A stretch of 64,000 nucleotides of DNA from Anaerocolumna sp. AGMB13025. Lineage in GTDB: Bacteria > Bacillota > Clostridia > Lachnospirales > Lachnospiraceae. Below the pieces are notes generated by a model. The model was not told the origin of the DNA, did not search any database, and saw only the letters and a program-made list of their open reading frames with translations. The position numbers and the translations under genes are program-made. The stretch spans positions 5,378,501 to 5,442,500 of the forward strand of contig NZ_CP121445.1 in assembly GCF_029689925.1 (NCBI RefSeq). The letters are read 5' to 3'. Numbering within the stretch: position 1 is the first letter of the stretch; each line of letters opens with the position of its first letter. This document shows, in pieces, positions 57,899-62,913 of this stretch.

Positions 57899-58299
57899 AT
57901 CGTTTACAATCAGCCTAAACCTTATTTTTCTCTATTTAAGTGGATGTATTCCATCTTTTCTTAAGGTAAGCTAAATACTCCTCAGCATTCAATTTTTTAG
58001 ACATTAATTCATTTATTATAGTGAATTAACTTTATAAATATGATACTACTAAAAAATATAAATTACCACATATTTCTAGTTGGTAATAATACAACCGTAC
58101 CTGATTATGAACATATTTAGTATTTAGCATACTACTTGATTAAGCTATATAATTAAAATACAGATTTGCCTGTCTGTGCAAAAAGTGAGGTTAATCATCT
58201 GTACCATAAGATAGATGGCAATCAAAAACACTTAACTGTTTCTCAAAGGTTAATTATTGAAAAAGGATTGTGTTGGAATATTTTTTTGTTTATTTACCC
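57899..58299. other. Gene-free stretch with a 22-codon gene remnant
   Basis: No full gene. On the minus strand 57936-58004 reads as a 22-residue frame (MSKKLNAEEYLAYLKKRWN...) with protein-like composition but no ribosome binding site, probably the front of a lost gene. Otherwise AT-rich DNA leading to the LexA-controlled promoter at 58300. Confidence 0.35.
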
Positions 58300-58355
58300 T
58301 TGACTTCATTTTGTTTGTTTTGTATAATAGTTTTAGATACTCGAACAAATGTTCC
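58300..58355 (+). promoter_or_regulatory. SOS promoter with LexA box
   Basis: TTGACT (58300-58305), 17-base spacer, TATAAT (58323-58328), then CGAACAAATGTTCC at 58342-58355, a perfect match to the firmicute LexA consensus CGAAC-RNRY-GTTYC. The box lies just after the start site, a repressing position. Confidence 0.85.
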
Positions 58356-58378
58356 CTGTTAGTGGAGGTGGTCACCCT

Positions 58379-58693
58379 ATGTTTGATAATTCATATTCAT
58401 ATGGTTTTTCATCTGGTAATAAGCAAAACGGTATTCTTTATTCCAAATTAGAGACCTCTGTTATTGCTTCTTTTAATCCTGCCGGTAAAATTAAACCATT
58501 ATATTTTCAGTATAAGGATTTCTATGGTGATAACACTAATATTAAGATTGAACGTGTCCTCTCTTCGAAAGAAGAGACGATTGATACTCTTCCTGTAATC
58601 ACTTATTCCTGTCAGGCAAATGTTCAAAGCCGAACACTACAATGTAAACTCCGGTACCATATATCTGAGCACTACTGGGAGATTCTATATTAA
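58379..58693 (+). CDS. Small LexA-controlled protein of unknown function (104 residues)
   Basis: ATG 58379 has GGAGGTG eight bases upstream; the frame is open to 58349 but that GTT-rich start has no ribosome site. The 104-residue product begins MFDNSYSYGFSSGNK, has a central hydrophilic SKLETSVIASFNPAGKIKPLYF stretch and no signal peptide or membrane helix. I do not recognise the family. The LexA box and the phage-like small gene behind it suggest it belongs to a mobile or prophage-derived element and is induced by DNA damage. Confidence 0.65.
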   Translation: MFDNSYSYGFSSGNKQNGILYSKLETSVIASFNPAGKIKPLYFQYKDFYGDNTNIKIERVLSSKEETIDTLPVITYSCQANVQSRTLQCKLRYHISEHYWEILY

Positions 58694-58819
58694 TGTCATT
58701 ATTCCGCTCTTAATAAAAAGCTGTGCCTGCAAGTACTAAGTTTTCAAAGGGGTAGTCCTTTTACACTAAATTATCTGTGACATTGTTTTGTTTTACTATA
58801 ATGAAATGGAGGATTTATC

Positions 58820-58927
58820 TTGAATCTAAATAATTACCGGGATGAAGCAGAAGACTTCCTAAAAAAACTAGGAGTTCAAAATGAAACCTTAGATATTAAG
58901 ATATCCACATGTTTTTATTTTTCTTAA
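58820..58927 (+). pseudogene. Short LexA-unit gene or truncated phage-type gene (35 codons)
   Basis: TTG start at 58820 with GGAGG eight bases upstream and TATAAT-like sequence ahead. The product MNLNNYRDEAEDFLKKLG... is 35 residues and then stops. It resembles in flavour the N-terminus of small phage proteins with NYxxxAxxFLKK starts, so it may be the front of a truncated gene. Functional status unclear. Confidence 0.35.
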
Positions 58928-59054
58928 AAGTACATGACTTTTCCCGTTATGTTGCATATTTTCTGACCTATGCGACATGAAATGCAACACAATTTTTCTA
59001 TACAAATATACTTGCTGTACTCTCCGTATAGCACCCAAAAGCAACCCCATGCTC

Positions 59055-59578
59055 TTCCCAGATTACATTGGGTTTTCTATTGACAAATTATCTTGGTACT
59101 TATCGCAATTATTGTAATACCAGTACAATCAGCGAGTGCTGCGTCTACAAAATAAGTAAAAATAATTTAATTTTATATGTTGGTGATACATACAGTATAA
59201 AAGTCACCGGTACTACAAAGACAGTAAAATGGGTTAGTAATAATAGCTCTGTGGCTTCTGTAACAAGTAAGGGTAAAATAACAGCAAACGATATAGGCAA
59301 AACAATTATCATAGGGAAGGTTGGAAGTAAGAATTATTCTTGCAAAATAGAAGTACGGTCAAATAAGTTTACTGATCGATTGTCTGAAATTGATAATTTC
59401 ATAATTGGTACTATATGGAATAATGCTTTTTGCAATATTGACTGGTACATTTCATCTGGCACTGACTCTGTAGGGGGAAATTAGATATTGAAAAGACTCT
59501 TAAAAATCTCACTGATTCCATGAAACAACTAGATAATTATGATAAATACGAAAAAAGGAACTGCTATTAAAACAGTTC
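59055..59578 (+). pseudogene. Frameshifted secreted Ig-like (Big_2) protein
   Basis: Three frames together make one decayed gene. A signal-peptide core LIAIIVIPVQSASA (59098-59141) is read in one frame and ends in a stop soon after; a Big_2 domain (KISKNNLILYVGDTYSIKV, SNNSSVASVTSKGKITAN, about 59152-59355) is read in another and carries on to a stop at 59484; and KTLKNLTDSMKQLDNYDKYEK (59493-59560) in a third. At least two frameshifts, near 59145-59155 and 59470-59485, separate them. It is a small secreted Ig-like protein, not a fragment of the S-layer-type gene at 29158. Confidence 0.72.
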
Positions 59579-59580
59579 CT
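59551..59580 (-). terminator. Intrinsic terminator of the SOS two-gene unit
   Basis: Stem AGGAACTG (59556-59563) / CAGTTCCT (59573-59580), loop CTATTAAAA region, T run on the minus strand at 59551-59556; 12 bases past the membrane-protein stop. Confidence 0.88.
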
Positions 59581-59591
59581 AATTAATTGTT

Positions 59592-60167
59592 TTATTTTTC
59601 ATTTGTCTTTTTAATTAAATTTTTTAAGTTTGTTTCATCTTCGTTTGTAATTTCATTTTTTACTTTTTTATTTGGCGTATCATCGTCTAAAAATAATCTT
59701 AATAGCAAACTAATAAACCTATAAGCATTCGAAAGATAATATAACAACACCCAAATCCAAATAGCTGTTAGAATTATTAATCCCCAGCGCAAATAGATAT
59801 CATTTAATAGTAATAAGCATGAAAGCACATCTGCAGCCAATCCAGATATAATCGTCAGTTTCAAAGAACTTGCAAATTTCTTTTTATCAGCATTATCAAA
59901 AAAATACTGGATTAAATTAGATTTACCTTTATTTGAAATTAAGATGGTTAATAATACACCTAAAAAACTTATTATAATCGATATAAATGTTATAGTAGAT
60001 TTAAATACTTCATTGAAATTTTTACTATCATAGACCTCATAAAGTCCAAGTTTCAATAAATAATTTAATCCTGAATAGCTCAAGAAAATAATACTAGAAA
60101 TGGACGGAATACTATAATAATATTTTTTTAAGCATTTCTTTAAACCATTTCTAGCTATTTTTTTCAT
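59592..60167 (-). CDS. Four-helix membrane protein, second gene of SOS unit
   Basis: 191 residues from ATG 60167 (AAGAGG eight bases upstream; the GTG at 60176 is too close to it). The basic N-terminus KKIARNGLKKCLKKYYYS is followed by four membrane helices at about 20-40, 59-79, 102-122 and 127-152, and a charged cytosolic tail (~155-191, Asp/Glu/Lys/Asn-rich). No family recognised. It starts one base after the stop of the ~300-residue cytosolic protein, so the two are tightly coupled and probably interact. The layout, a soluble partner plus a small four-helix membrane protein, is that of RexAB and Kiwa, but no sequence similarity is claimed. Confidence 0.8.
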   Translation of the reverse strand: MKKIARNGLKKCLKKYYYSIPSISSIIFLSYSGLNYLLKLGLYEVYDSKNFNEVFKSTITFISIIISFLGVLLTILISNKGKSNLIQYFFDNADKKKFASSLKLTIISGLAADVLSCLLLLNDIYLRWGLIILTAIWIWVLLYYLSNAYRFISLLLRLFLDDDTPNKKVKNEITNEDETNLKNLIKKTNEK

Positions 60168-60168
60168 T

Positions 60169-61074
60169 CTATTCACCTCTTCTTAAGATATTTAATATTC
60201 TTGCCCTTGCTCTTTCATCATATTTTTCTGCCATTGTATCGGCCATAAATCCATATCCTAATTCTCCGCGTGCTTGGATAGGGAATGTTATTTTATCACT
60301 TTCTATATTGTTAAACAAATCAAAAACAGCAGACTTCTGATCATCTGTAAGCATAATTTTGGCAGATGATATGCAACGCTTATTTTTTATAATATCGGTT
60401 ACAGCATTATATACAGTCTCTGGATCTAATTTATTTTCTTTATTACGTCCCTGCCCCATTCCTATTTCAATATGAGCTGTTATACATTCCATCTTTTTAA
60501 ATGAGTCAACAATTTCTTCAAATTCTTCTGACTGGTCAGGTCGAAATTCCCTAATATCAGAAAACCTAACATCTATCTTTGTTGTAGCTCCTTCAAGACA
60601 TTTTTGCACATCTAACTCACTTAAAATAGGTCTAAGATAACATAAATCACTTTCAGAATTGAAGGAATTAATATAACTCTCTATAGCTGTAACGCCATAT
60701 CCTCCTCTATTACACTGAACCATAACTATATAAAGCCTAGGATCATATAATATTACTGTATTCTTACCGATATATTCGCCATCTTCTAAATCTATGTGTT
60801 CTGCCTCTTCGTCTTCGCGAACGAGATACGTGTTACTTAGTTCATCCATTCTCATAAAATTAACTGCATAATATTCTTCATTATGTACTAAGTCTATGTT
60901 TTCTACTCTTCCTTTTATACCATTTATATCCTTGATGCGATTTGATAAATCAGTGATAGCTGCAAGCTTAGCAATCCAAGTTCTAAAATCATAATTAATA
61001 TCTGTATGCTCATCATTATCCATACAACATATTTCATAATATTGATATTTTATTGTGCTCCGTTTAATTACCAT
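60169..61074 (-). CDS. LexA-controlled cytosolic protein (~300 residues), first gene of SOS unit
   Basis: 301 residues, ATG with AGGAGGG four bases upstream. No signal or membrane segment. The N-terminal half alternates strands and helices (YQYYEICCMD..., DFRTWIAKLAAI, GYIG-like DGEYIGKNTVILYDPRLYIVMVQ, IESYINSF), the C-terminal half includes DIREFRPDQSEEFEEIVDSF. It resembles a group of ~300-residue uncharacterised firmicute proteins (possibly the DUF6731 group; not verified). The promoter 61183-61211 contains a LexA box in its spacer. It is co-transcribed with a four-helix membrane protein, so a damage- or phage-triggered sensor/effector pair is possible (inference). Confidence 0.8.
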   Translation of the reverse strand: MVIKRSTIKYQYYEICCMDNDEHTDINYDFRTWIAKLAAITDLSNRIKDINGIKGRVENIDLVHNEEYYAVNFMRMDELSNTYLVREDEEAEHIDLEDGEYIGKNTVILYDPRLYIVMVQCNRGGYGVTAIESYINSFNSESDLCYLRPILSELDVQKCLEGATTKIDVRFSDIREFRPDQSEEFEEIVDSFKKMECITAHIEIGMGQGRNKENKLDPETVYNAVTDIIKNKRCISSAKIMLTDDQKSAVFDLFNNIESDKITFPIQARGELGYGFMADTMAEKYDERARARILNILRRGE

Positions 61075-61182
61075 AATACCCTCCTATTAATTATTTTACC
61101 AACATTATACAACTATATAATGTATGATTCAATAAAAAAGGGTAAAATATGACAAATAGTGAGAGGATTTGTTAATAAATAC

Positions 61183-61211
61183 ATTATACGAACATTTGTT
61201 CTTATTGTCAA
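61183..61211 (-). promoter_or_regulatory. SOS promoter with LexA box inside the spacer
   Basis: Minus strand TTGACA (61206-61211), 17-base spacer, TATAAT (61183-61188), both perfect. The spacer contains AGAACAAATGTTCG (61189-61202), a LexA box of the firmicute type, so bound LexA would cover the polymerase site completely. Confidence 0.88.
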
Positions 61212-61237
61212 TAACTTTATGATGAAATTTATTAGTT

Positions 61238-61261
61238 AAAAAAAGCACCCAGAAGGATGCT
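61238..61261 (-). terminator. Terminator of the YHYH/peptidoglycan-binding gene
   Basis: Stem AGCATCC / GGGTGCT (one G-T) with loop TTCT on the minus strand, then a T run at 61238-61244. Confidence 0.82.
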
Positions 61262-61316
61262 TGTAGTATATATTATATTTTAAATTAATGTTACACAATA
61301 TATAATATCGCCTTAG

Positions 61317-61790
61317 CTAATTAATATTGAGTGCCTTTTTTACCTTAGGACCTATTATTCCATCTTTCTTTAAACCATTGTCCTCTTGGAATTCTTTTAA
61401 CGCTGCCTTAGTTTTTTTACCAAATACACCATCAGGTGTACCACAATCATATCCCAGTGCGTTTAAAGCTTCTTGTACCTTTTGGACAACTTCAGTAGAT
61501 ATCGTGGATTTTTTTTCTTTTTTCGAACTTGATGAAGTCGAATTTTTACTTGAGTCTGTTGAATATGGACATACCCCATTATCATGTAAATGAGCTGGAT
61601 TTCCTCCACAATGATAGTGATAACTGCCTAATCCACTTTTATTTTTATTGTCCTTATGTCCCCCGCTCGAATCTGTTCTACCTGAATGCGCTTCTGCTGT
61701 TATCATATTTATGTGGTAGTCATAAATTGGAGCAAACGCAACTGTCATTATTAATAAGATTATCAAAAACTTATTAATTCTATTCTTCAA
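61317..61790 (-). CDS. Secreted YHYH and peptidoglycan-binding domain protein
   Basis: 157 residues, TTG start with AAGGAGG eight bases upstream. Signal peptide over residues ~7-33 (cleavage probably at ITAEA), a short YHYHCGGNPAHLH metal-binding-type motif at ~57-69, a Ser/Lys linker, and a C-terminal peptidoglycan-binding domain (VQEALNALGYDCGTPDGVFGKKT). Small secreted proteins of this type occur near nucleases and mobile genes; the function is unknown. Promoter at 61816-61844. Confidence 0.85.
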   Translation of the reverse strand: MKNRINKFLIILLIMTVAFAPIYDYHINMITAEAHSGRTDSSGGHKDNKNKSGLGSYHYHCGGNPAHLHDNGVCPYSTDSSKNSTSSSSKKEKKSTISTEVVQKVQEALNALGYDCGTPDGVFGKKTKAALKEFQEDNGLKKDGIIGPKVKKALNIN

Positions 61791-61815
61791 ATTATATACC
61801 TCCTTCCCTATACAA

Positions 61816-61844
61816 ATACTACCACTATTTTACATTATTTGCAA
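61816..61844 (-). promoter_or_regulatory. Promoter of the YHYH protein gene
   Basis: Minus strand TTGCAA (61839-61844), 17-base spacer, TAGTAT (61816-61821), 26 bases before the start codon. Confidence 0.65.
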
Positions 61845-61850
61845 TAACGT

Positions 61851-61882
61851 AAAAAGACACCTTACGCCTTTGTAAGATGCCT
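61851..61882 (-). terminator. Intrinsic terminator of unclear owner
   Basis: GGCATCTTAC / GTAAGGTGTC stem (one G-T) with AAAGGC loop and TTTTT on the minus strand, but the tRNA upstream already has its own terminator. It may belong to a lost gene between 61883 and 61985. Confidence 0.6.
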
Positions 61883-61984
61883 TTCTAAATGAGGGGAAGT
61901 ATAAATAATTGTCGCAAATAGCCACGAAAGAAAAACGATAAAATAACTAATATATCCTTTGAAGAGGCTATGCAATACAAAATA

Positions 61985-62011
61985 AAAAAACCCCCGAAAA
62001 TTCGGAGGTTA
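61985..62011 (-). terminator. Intrinsic terminator of tRNA-Pro
   Basis: ACCTCCGAA / TTCGGGGGT hairpin (one G-T) followed by a T run on the minus strand, six bases after the tRNA 3' end. Confidence 0.9.
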
Positions 62012-62016
62012 TATAA

Positions 62017-62091
62017 TCGAGGCGACAAGATTTGAACTTGCGACCTCTGCGTCCCTAACACAGCGCTCTAGCCAAGCTGAGCCACGCCTCG
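62017..62091 (-). tRNA. tRNA-Pro, anticodon AGG
   Basis: A full cloverleaf on the minus strand: acceptor CGAGGCG/CGCCTCG with discriminator A, D arm GCTC/GAGC, anticodon stem CTGTG/CGCAG (one T-G) with loop TTAGGGA, T arm GCAAG-TTCAAAT-CTTGT. Residues 34-36 are A, G, G, so it reads CCU proline codons, with inosine at 34 also CCC and CCA. CCA is not encoded. An A34 tRNA other than tRNA-Arg is unusual in bacteria. Confidence 0.95.
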
Positions 62092-62280
62092 ATTTGCTTT
62101 GTGAAATATTTTGTTGTTTTCACAGCAGATATATATTATAATATTTCGAGAAGAAAATCAAGCAAAATTTATAAATTTTTTAAAAAATTTCAAAAACTTA
62201 TGAAATGGGAACGAAAAATTGTTTTAAATCACCTTTATATGTAAATATATCCCGTTTTTCAGTTATTATGGAGGGTCTTT

Positions 62281-62913
62281 ATGGATATACAAAGAAATTA
62301 CCAAAAAGAAATGGATAAGCTGCTGGCAGGTTTAGAAGCAGATCATATCACGCCCAGTCTGCTGTTACATAGCTGCTGCGCTCCCTGCAGCAGTTATGTG
62401 CTTGAGTACTTAACCCAATTCTTTCATATAACCATATATTATTATAATCCCAATATATCCTTTGAAGAGGAATATCACAGACGTGTCCAGGAACAGAAAC
62501 GTCTAATCAGCAGCCTGACGGTTAAGAATCCCATTCAGTTTCGCCAGGGAATCTATGATCCAGACCGTTTTTATGAATTAGCAAAAGGACTTGAATCCTG
62601 TCCGGAGGGCGGTGAGCGTTGCTTTAAGTGCTATGAACTCCGCCTTGAAGAAACTGCCAAACTGGCTAAGGAGGAAGGGTTTGATTATTTTACCACTACG
62701 TTATCCATCAGCCCACATAAAAACGCCGGAAAGTTAAATGAAATCGGGGAACGGCTATCTAAGAAATATGATACCCCTTACCTGGGAGCTGATTTTAAGA
62801 AGAAGAACGGTTACAAACGTTCTATCGAACTTTCCAAAGAATATCAGCTCTACAGGCAGGATTACTGTGGTTGTATCTATTCTAAGGTCAATGAGACGGC
62901 TGGGAAAGATTGA
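62281..62913 (+). CDS. queH: Epoxyqueuosine reductase QueH
   Basis: 210 residues, ATG with GGAGGG seven bases upstream. LLLHSCCAPCSSYVLE at ~27-42 (C32, C33, C36), CFKCYELR, DYFTTTLSISPHKN and the late RQDYCGCIYS give the Cys set of the QueH (DUF208) family, which carries an [4Fe-4S]-adjacent metal site and does the last step of queuosine synthesis in place of QueG. Stands alone; its stop is one base from the stop of the convergent glycosidase gene. Confidence 0.95.
   Translation: MDIQRNYQKEMDKLLAGLEADHITPSLLLHSCCAPCSSYVLEYLTQFFHITIYYYNPNISFEEEYHRRVQEQKRLISSLTVKNPIQFRQGIYDPDRFYELAKGLESCPEGGERCFKCYELRLEETAKLAKEEGFDYFTTTLSISPHKNAGKLNEIGERLSKKYDTPYLGADFKKKNGYKRSIELSKEYQLYRQDYCGCIYSKVNETAGKD

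Follow-up and report, generated by a model that had tools for sequence, protein, structure and literature searches.

What is the function of a gene pair that encodes a soluble protein and a small membrane protein behind a promoter with a LexA-like box? Such a pair, gene A followed by gene B, lies in the 64,000-nucleotide stretch of Anaerocolumna sp. AGMB13025 analysed here (the window). At a probability of roughly 60%, we take it to be a Firmicute module of the RexAB type that acts in phage exclusion (abortive infection), that probably arrived on a mobile element and that has come under SOS repressor control. Coordinates are positions in the window, and both genes and their control sites lie on the minus strand:

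60169 to 61074, minus strand: gene A, a DUF6731 protein of 301 residues with a predicted RexA fold (PF20505; phrog_10865; AlphaFold; lambda RexA as best PDB match; profile alignment to RexA)
59592 to 60167, minus strand: gene B, a four-helix membrane protein of 191 residues in the position of RexB (phrog_17119; AlphaFold; follows A in 35 of 35 loci)
61183 to 61211, minus strand: promoter P1, TTGACA-17-TATAAT (exact-match count; promoter score 12/12)
61189 to 61202, minus strand: LexA-like box AGAACAAATGTTCG, one mismatch to CGAACRNRYGTTYG, wholly within the 17-base spacer of P1
61104 to 61132, minus strand: possible second, basal promoter P2, TTGAAT-17-TATAAT (promoter score 10/12)
61079 to 61084, minus strand: GGAGGG, ribosome-binding site of gene A (from sequence)
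60174 to 60179, minus strand: GAGGTG, ribosome-binding site of gene B, within the 3' end of gene A (from sequence)
59556 to 59580, minus strand: intrinsic terminator past gene B, a stem with T tail (terminator scan)
61243 to 61262, minus strand: intrinsic terminator-like site upstream of P1 (terminator scan)

Gene B starts one base past the stop codon of gene A, and the two terminator-like sites are predicted to insulate the pair. The exact motif TTGACA-17-TATAAT occurs twice in the window, against 0.07 expected, and P1, one of the two, is the sole 12/12 promoter match within 57900-62300. Promoter, box in the spacer, gene lengths, one-base gap and terminator are all exactly as the first-pass annotation of this DNA had described them. 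The start of P1 and the P2 region of the gene A leader are joined by an imperfect inverted repeat (61116-61188; 21-base arms, 76%).

The first-pass annotation could name no family with certainty for either protein. Gene A belongs to one that is named and lacks a function, DUF6731 (PF20505), which it matches with an E value of 8.3e-48 and 163.8 bits, above the curated cut-off of 27 bits, residues 6-290 aligning to positions 4-292 of the 295 in the model; it further matches phrog_10865 at 4e-37. The name DUF6731 was absent from the papers searched, a search that most subscription papers and bioRxiv preprints lay outside. In two structure searches, the best PDB match of the AlphaFold model of A (predicted local distance difference test, pLDDT, 90.3) was lambda RexA. 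The RexA-type fold is a split globular domain with an inserted dimerization domain, as in 8twq, and profile alignments of the gene A family to RexA were collinear (two alignments). Based on the model, we conclude that gene A has the RexA fold, which bears out the earlier suggestion of a likeness to RexAB.

To follow the pair across genomes, we counted 33 DUF6731 loci, all found via A (the window, 11 loci from genomes, 9 genome contigs, 9 viral contigs and 3 phage records); two further loci (L108, L109) from a 391-genome sample gave a total of 35. Duplicates by place or match (L037, L040, L041, L048, L049, L057, L060, L063) were left out of the counts, as were L051 (contig end) and L045 (start of A missing, B present); L045 was used for alignments and neighbours. 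L035 and L036, in which A is broken, entered the upstream and pairing counts and the B alignments and were left out of the A alignments and tree; L031 was not in alignments A4 and A5, and both members of the close pairs L042/L043 and L044/L047 were kept. A gene of 147-201 codons whose product has hydropathy peaks follows A in all 33 loci and in both further ones. In the 31 loci with intact A, the longest B frame starts at most 53 bases past the A stop codon; for L035, where the script picked another frame, the B gene is the frame aligned separately. The B genes of 27 of the 35 loci, the window's included, were aligned with the B gene of the window, while the assignment in L052, L054, L064, L088, L089, L090, L108 and L109 is based on position, gene length and helices. 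The gene order is thus that of RexAB systems, a four-helix membrane protein gene directly after a RexA-like gene, and the expected co-occurrence extends to every A locus counted. Searches starting from B matched 9 of 397 genomes, seven times beside A; the other two matches, at about 1e-3, fell in long frames, and the B gene of G364 (L031) was missed. In L035 (9277-11550, G716), A is disrupted by a frame resembling, on visual inspection, a TnpB-type transposon protein, and in L036 (9559-10490, G572), A is split into two frames.

The AlphaFold model of gene B (pLDDT 80.2) shows helices at 20-39, 48-78, 95-120 and 127-163 and a charged C-terminal helix at 175-190. The four membrane helices and charged tail proposed earlier thus appear in the model, while simple hydropathy finds three of the four. 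Gene B matches phrog_17119 at 2.9e-5 and has no match to Pfam RexB (PF15968) at E≤1. Kiwa (KwaA-KwaB) likewise consists of a soluble and a four-helix membrane protein. A Kiwa-like membrane defence complex would share this general plan; however, among matches to the PADLOC library, which presumably holds KwaA/KwaB models, no Kiwa model appeared for the window proteins (E≤1) or for 28 A and 27 B relatives (E≤0.1), and RexA is the best fold for A. The Kiwa comparison drawn at first thus receives no backing from sequence models, and we regard such a complex as most improbable.

In two viral contigs, L055 and L058, the 1033 bases up to and including the A start codon show 93% identity, and similarity resumes past the pair (99% over 88 bases and 92% over a further match of 2001 bases). 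In contrast to these flanks, their A proteins are 27% and their B proteins 25% identical, indicating that A and B were exchanged together while the SOS promoter was kept. The exchanged part of L055 contains an extra small frame. Joint exchange, in this single case, is what a cognate pair subject to diversifying selection should show, and the two cassettes provide A-B pairs, naturally matched or mismatched, with which to map how a sensor opens a membrane effector.

By itself, the LexA-like box does not beat chance. With one mismatch to the consensus allowed, the window contains 2 such boxes against 0.36 expected, a number reached by 9 of 100 shuffles, and the genome contains 20 against 47 for the reversed control. 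What lends it weight is that it sits in a perfect promoter, that similar boxes precede lexA and that it recurs across loci. Within 300 bases upstream of A, 10 of 33 loci have an exact GAACN4GTTY (either strand), while the reversed pattern occurs in none and 200 dinucleotide shuffles gave a mean of 0.33 and a maximum of 2; neither L108 nor L109 has a box upstream of A. In all ten loci, the box precedes a -10 element (≤1 mismatch), and in eight of them a TTGACA-like hexamer (≤2 mismatches) lies 17 bases before the -10; the exceptions are L055, where the mismatches number three, and L044, which conforms if a different -10 is chosen. Near the start codon, all eight aligned leaders have a second TATAA[AT] in common. 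In G000 (this genome), G015, G281 and G364, lexA is preceded by boxes of the same type (0-2 mismatches), and one of those in G000 overlaps both the -35 element and the spacer of a TTGACA-17-TATAAT promoter oriented towards the neighbour of lexA. The predicted operator of the pair is therefore of the host type and lies within a promoter, and its presence in 10 of the 35 loci supports the LexA control proposed initially. Two further LexA-like boxes of this genome, promoter-like by eye (G000:C1, ~4202013 and ~2457355), precede genes for an ATP-binding-type protein and an unknown protein.

The box might instead serve another repressor, such as one of a prophage whose operator is similar, a situation compatible with any other reading of the pair. 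Six of the nine box-bearing relatives (L027, L044, L055, L056, L058, L088) come from viral or phage records or adjoin typed phage genes. However, the box corresponds to the Bacillus-type GAACN4GTTC (PMC4234289), the lexA genes of all four genomes inspected are preceded by boxes of that type, and among the frames at 52-64 kb of the window we noticed no phage repressor. We consider a different repressor quite unlikely.

Taking the pair as a RexAB-type module, we propose the following sequence of events. LexA would bind the box in the P1 spacer and keep P1 shut, while the weak proximal P2 may leak a small standing supply. DNA damage, or phage replication raising RecA filaments, would lead to LexA cleavage, upon which P1 would fire. 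A, like RexA probably a dimer that clamps DNA, would then sense either a phage protein or DNA-protein intermediates of the phage and switch on B, presumably an oligomeric four-helix membrane protein. B would render the membrane leaky and depolarise it, so that growth would stop before phage release, and this would protect against the phage. All steps after transcription are borrowed by analogy from lambda and from RexABpp, a system of a Pseudomonas putida prophage (PMC12894663). More tentatively, and with considerable doubt, the Firmicute branch of RexAB might couple phage exclusion to the SOS response. LexA cleavage would arm the pair and stop cells with raised RecA activity, whether from damage, incoming phage or a rival prophage; induction of one prophage would translate into membrane collapse against competitors, and cognate A-B cassettes would be swapped behind a fixed SOS promoter.

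Several observations weigh against the RexAB assignment or its SOS control. The superposition of gene A on RexA is partial (TM-score ~0.4 and whole-chain root-mean-square deviation 16.8 by Foldseek; 150 of 301 residues by VIA), and hhalign gave the gene A family a probability of 52% against RexA and of 14% against lambda RexA alone. Gene A had no match to Pfam RexA (PF15969) at E≤1, DUF6731 being the sole family reported, while lambda RexA itself scores 1e-97 against that model. By eye, R219/K221, basic residues of the non-specific DNA binding of lambda RexA, are not evident in the clade of the window; for lambda RexA itself, DNA binding did not track exclusion (PMC11077077). No convincing sequence or fold link connects gene B to RexB: the PADLOC RexB model was reached by one of 27 B proteins, at 0.029, and the window proteins gave a weak Cas6 match alone in PADLOC (0.013). 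According to PMC12894663, contact between RexApp and RexBpp was not shown by two-hybrid analysis, and in phage Butters the effector is the soluble protein rather than the membrane one. Finally, 25 of the 35 loci lack the box, including the near relative L050, and SOS control is therefore not general; on the A protein tree the box label changes seven times, five of these forced by well-supported branches, and is not clustered beyond chance.

The distribution of the pair is that of a rare element. DUF6731 was found in 8 of 397 genomes of the window's family, 5 of 398 of the phylum and 3 of 391 of the class, in overlapping samples that each include the own genome. All 16 genome-contig loci are from Firmicutes, the query being a Firmicute alignment. 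A signal below the cut-off appeared in the control genome of Methanocaldococcus jannaschii in each of four DUF6731 searches, possibly from an archaeal relative. According to PHROGs, a terminase adjoins the pair in L027, L028, L044, L050, L055 and L058 and an endolysin in L034 and L108. L045, L046 and L109 adjoin C5 methylases, L109 in addition an EcoO109I-type endonuclease. Overall, the loci are found beside restriction-modification genes, within prophages or in chromosomes.

At least 18 of the 35 loci keep phage company (12 in viral or phage records, 6 beside PHROG-typed phage genes), often before a terminase; the nearest relatives, L058 and L050, are among those beside a terminase gene. This would also fit a helper of prophage induction, in which A acts on the lysis-lysogeny switch of its prophage, as reported for lambda RexA, or the pair shuts out competing phages during induction, the window copy being a relic; SOS timing suits induction, and RexA biases lambda towards lysis (PMC11077077). 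However, the copies of the window, L031 and L039 seem, from the frames around them, to be surrounded by chromosomal genes, that of the window in no evident prophage, and three loci are beside restriction-modification genes. We noticed no cI/cro-type switch next to the pair among the listed frames, in which no systematic search was made. We judge a role as prophage helper unlikely. TisB of E. coli is a LexA-controlled membrane toxin. B could similarly be such a toxin, with A as its regulator, that imposes dormancy after DNA damage without any phage role, as the predicted LexA operator in the promoter, the small membrane protein and the chromosomal copies would allow. The company of phage and restriction-modification genes, the exchange of a divergent cassette as a unit, the rarity, the RexA fold and the 25 loci without a box argue to the contrary, making pure growth arrest very unlikely.

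The immediate setting of the window copy was compared with genomes of the same genus:

58694 to 62015, no strand: stretch with the pair, between a small SOS-type gene and tRNA-Pro, missing in same-genus G345 (GC 27-34%)

The pair sits between this small gene and tRNA-Pro(agg), in a region of 27-35% GC over about 57-62 kb as against 38-44% around it. The distance from small gene to tRNA is 262 bases in G345 and 3466 here, and the region further left differs too; A and B were not found in either of two same-genus genomes searched. The pair was probably brought in by a mobile element. In L099 (3869-4099, G024), the 3' end of tRNA-Pro recurs in several partial copies beside the tRNA, around a masked stretch, which suggests that tRNA-Pro is an integration site in the genus. 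A gene for a peptidoglycan-binding protein (PG_binding_1; 61317-61790, minus strand) lies beside the pair in the same insert. The small gene (58300-58693, plus strand; ~104 residues from 58379) has a LexA-like box at 58342-58355, just past a TTGACT-17-TATAAT promoter, and no Pfam match; its relative in G345 has two LexA-like boxes, one within the promoter spacer. It is possibly an undescribed SOS gene of this genus.

How does the pair compare with known systems? The recombination-associated protein RdgC has the same fold class as RexA and gene A. RdgC is not known to have a membrane partner. It differs in acting on RecA and recombination (PMC11077077). Among PADLOC phage-defence candidates, PDC-M67A is matched at 2.3e-14 by the divergent DUF6731 protein of L031, PDC-M67B by 2 of 27 B proteins (best 1.7e-5) and PDC-M18B by 6 of 27 (best 5.5e-6), while the proteins of the window match neither PDC-M67A nor PDC-M67B. 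Relatives of the pair have therefore already been flagged by others as defence candidates, and no paper on PDC-M67 was found in the literature searched. We also found no paper on RexA/RexB homologues in Bacillota in that literature, which comprised few subscription papers and no bioRxiv preprints, and no title joining RexAB prophage defence with Clostridi-. Literature joining RexAB with LexA includes PMC12894663, PMC11077077 and works on an unrelated S. aureus enzyme. The system is thus not undescribed in kind, RexAB being known and a distant relative matching PDC-M67A, but the description as new stands insofar as no DUF6731 paper was found in the same literature.

RexABpp, from P. putida prophage P1, resembles the pair in combining a RexA-like soluble protein with a four-transmembrane partner without HHpred match, and differs in lying behind a CI-like repressor in a proteobacterium (PMC12894663). 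That article counts five RexAB-like systems, and its main text does not contain SOS, Firmicutes or Gram-positive. RexAB is carried by temperate phages (lambda, P. putida P1, actinophages), as are many relatives of the pair; the window copy itself lies in no evident prophage. The activation mechanism of RexAB, which dates back 70 years, is still unknown (PMC12894663). If DUF6731 is RexA, a function-less family of Firmicutes and their phages gains a testable function, and the SOS promoter, as a built-in clue to the signal, would, if true, link the RexAB puzzle to the DNA-damage alarm. With RexA-RexB of lambda, the pair shares the A-then-B order, the RexA fold, the collinear profile alignment, the four-helix membrane partner and the carriage of relatives by phages; it differs in its Pfam families and in a B protein without convincing sequence link to RexB. 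Lambda rex lies behind cI and is expressed with it from PRM (PMC11077077), and damage, by CI cleavage, should therefore end the rex supply. In contrast, the pair described here lies behind its own promoter with a LexA box, and damage should switch it on; this reversed wiring, together with the fold assignment, is the new point.
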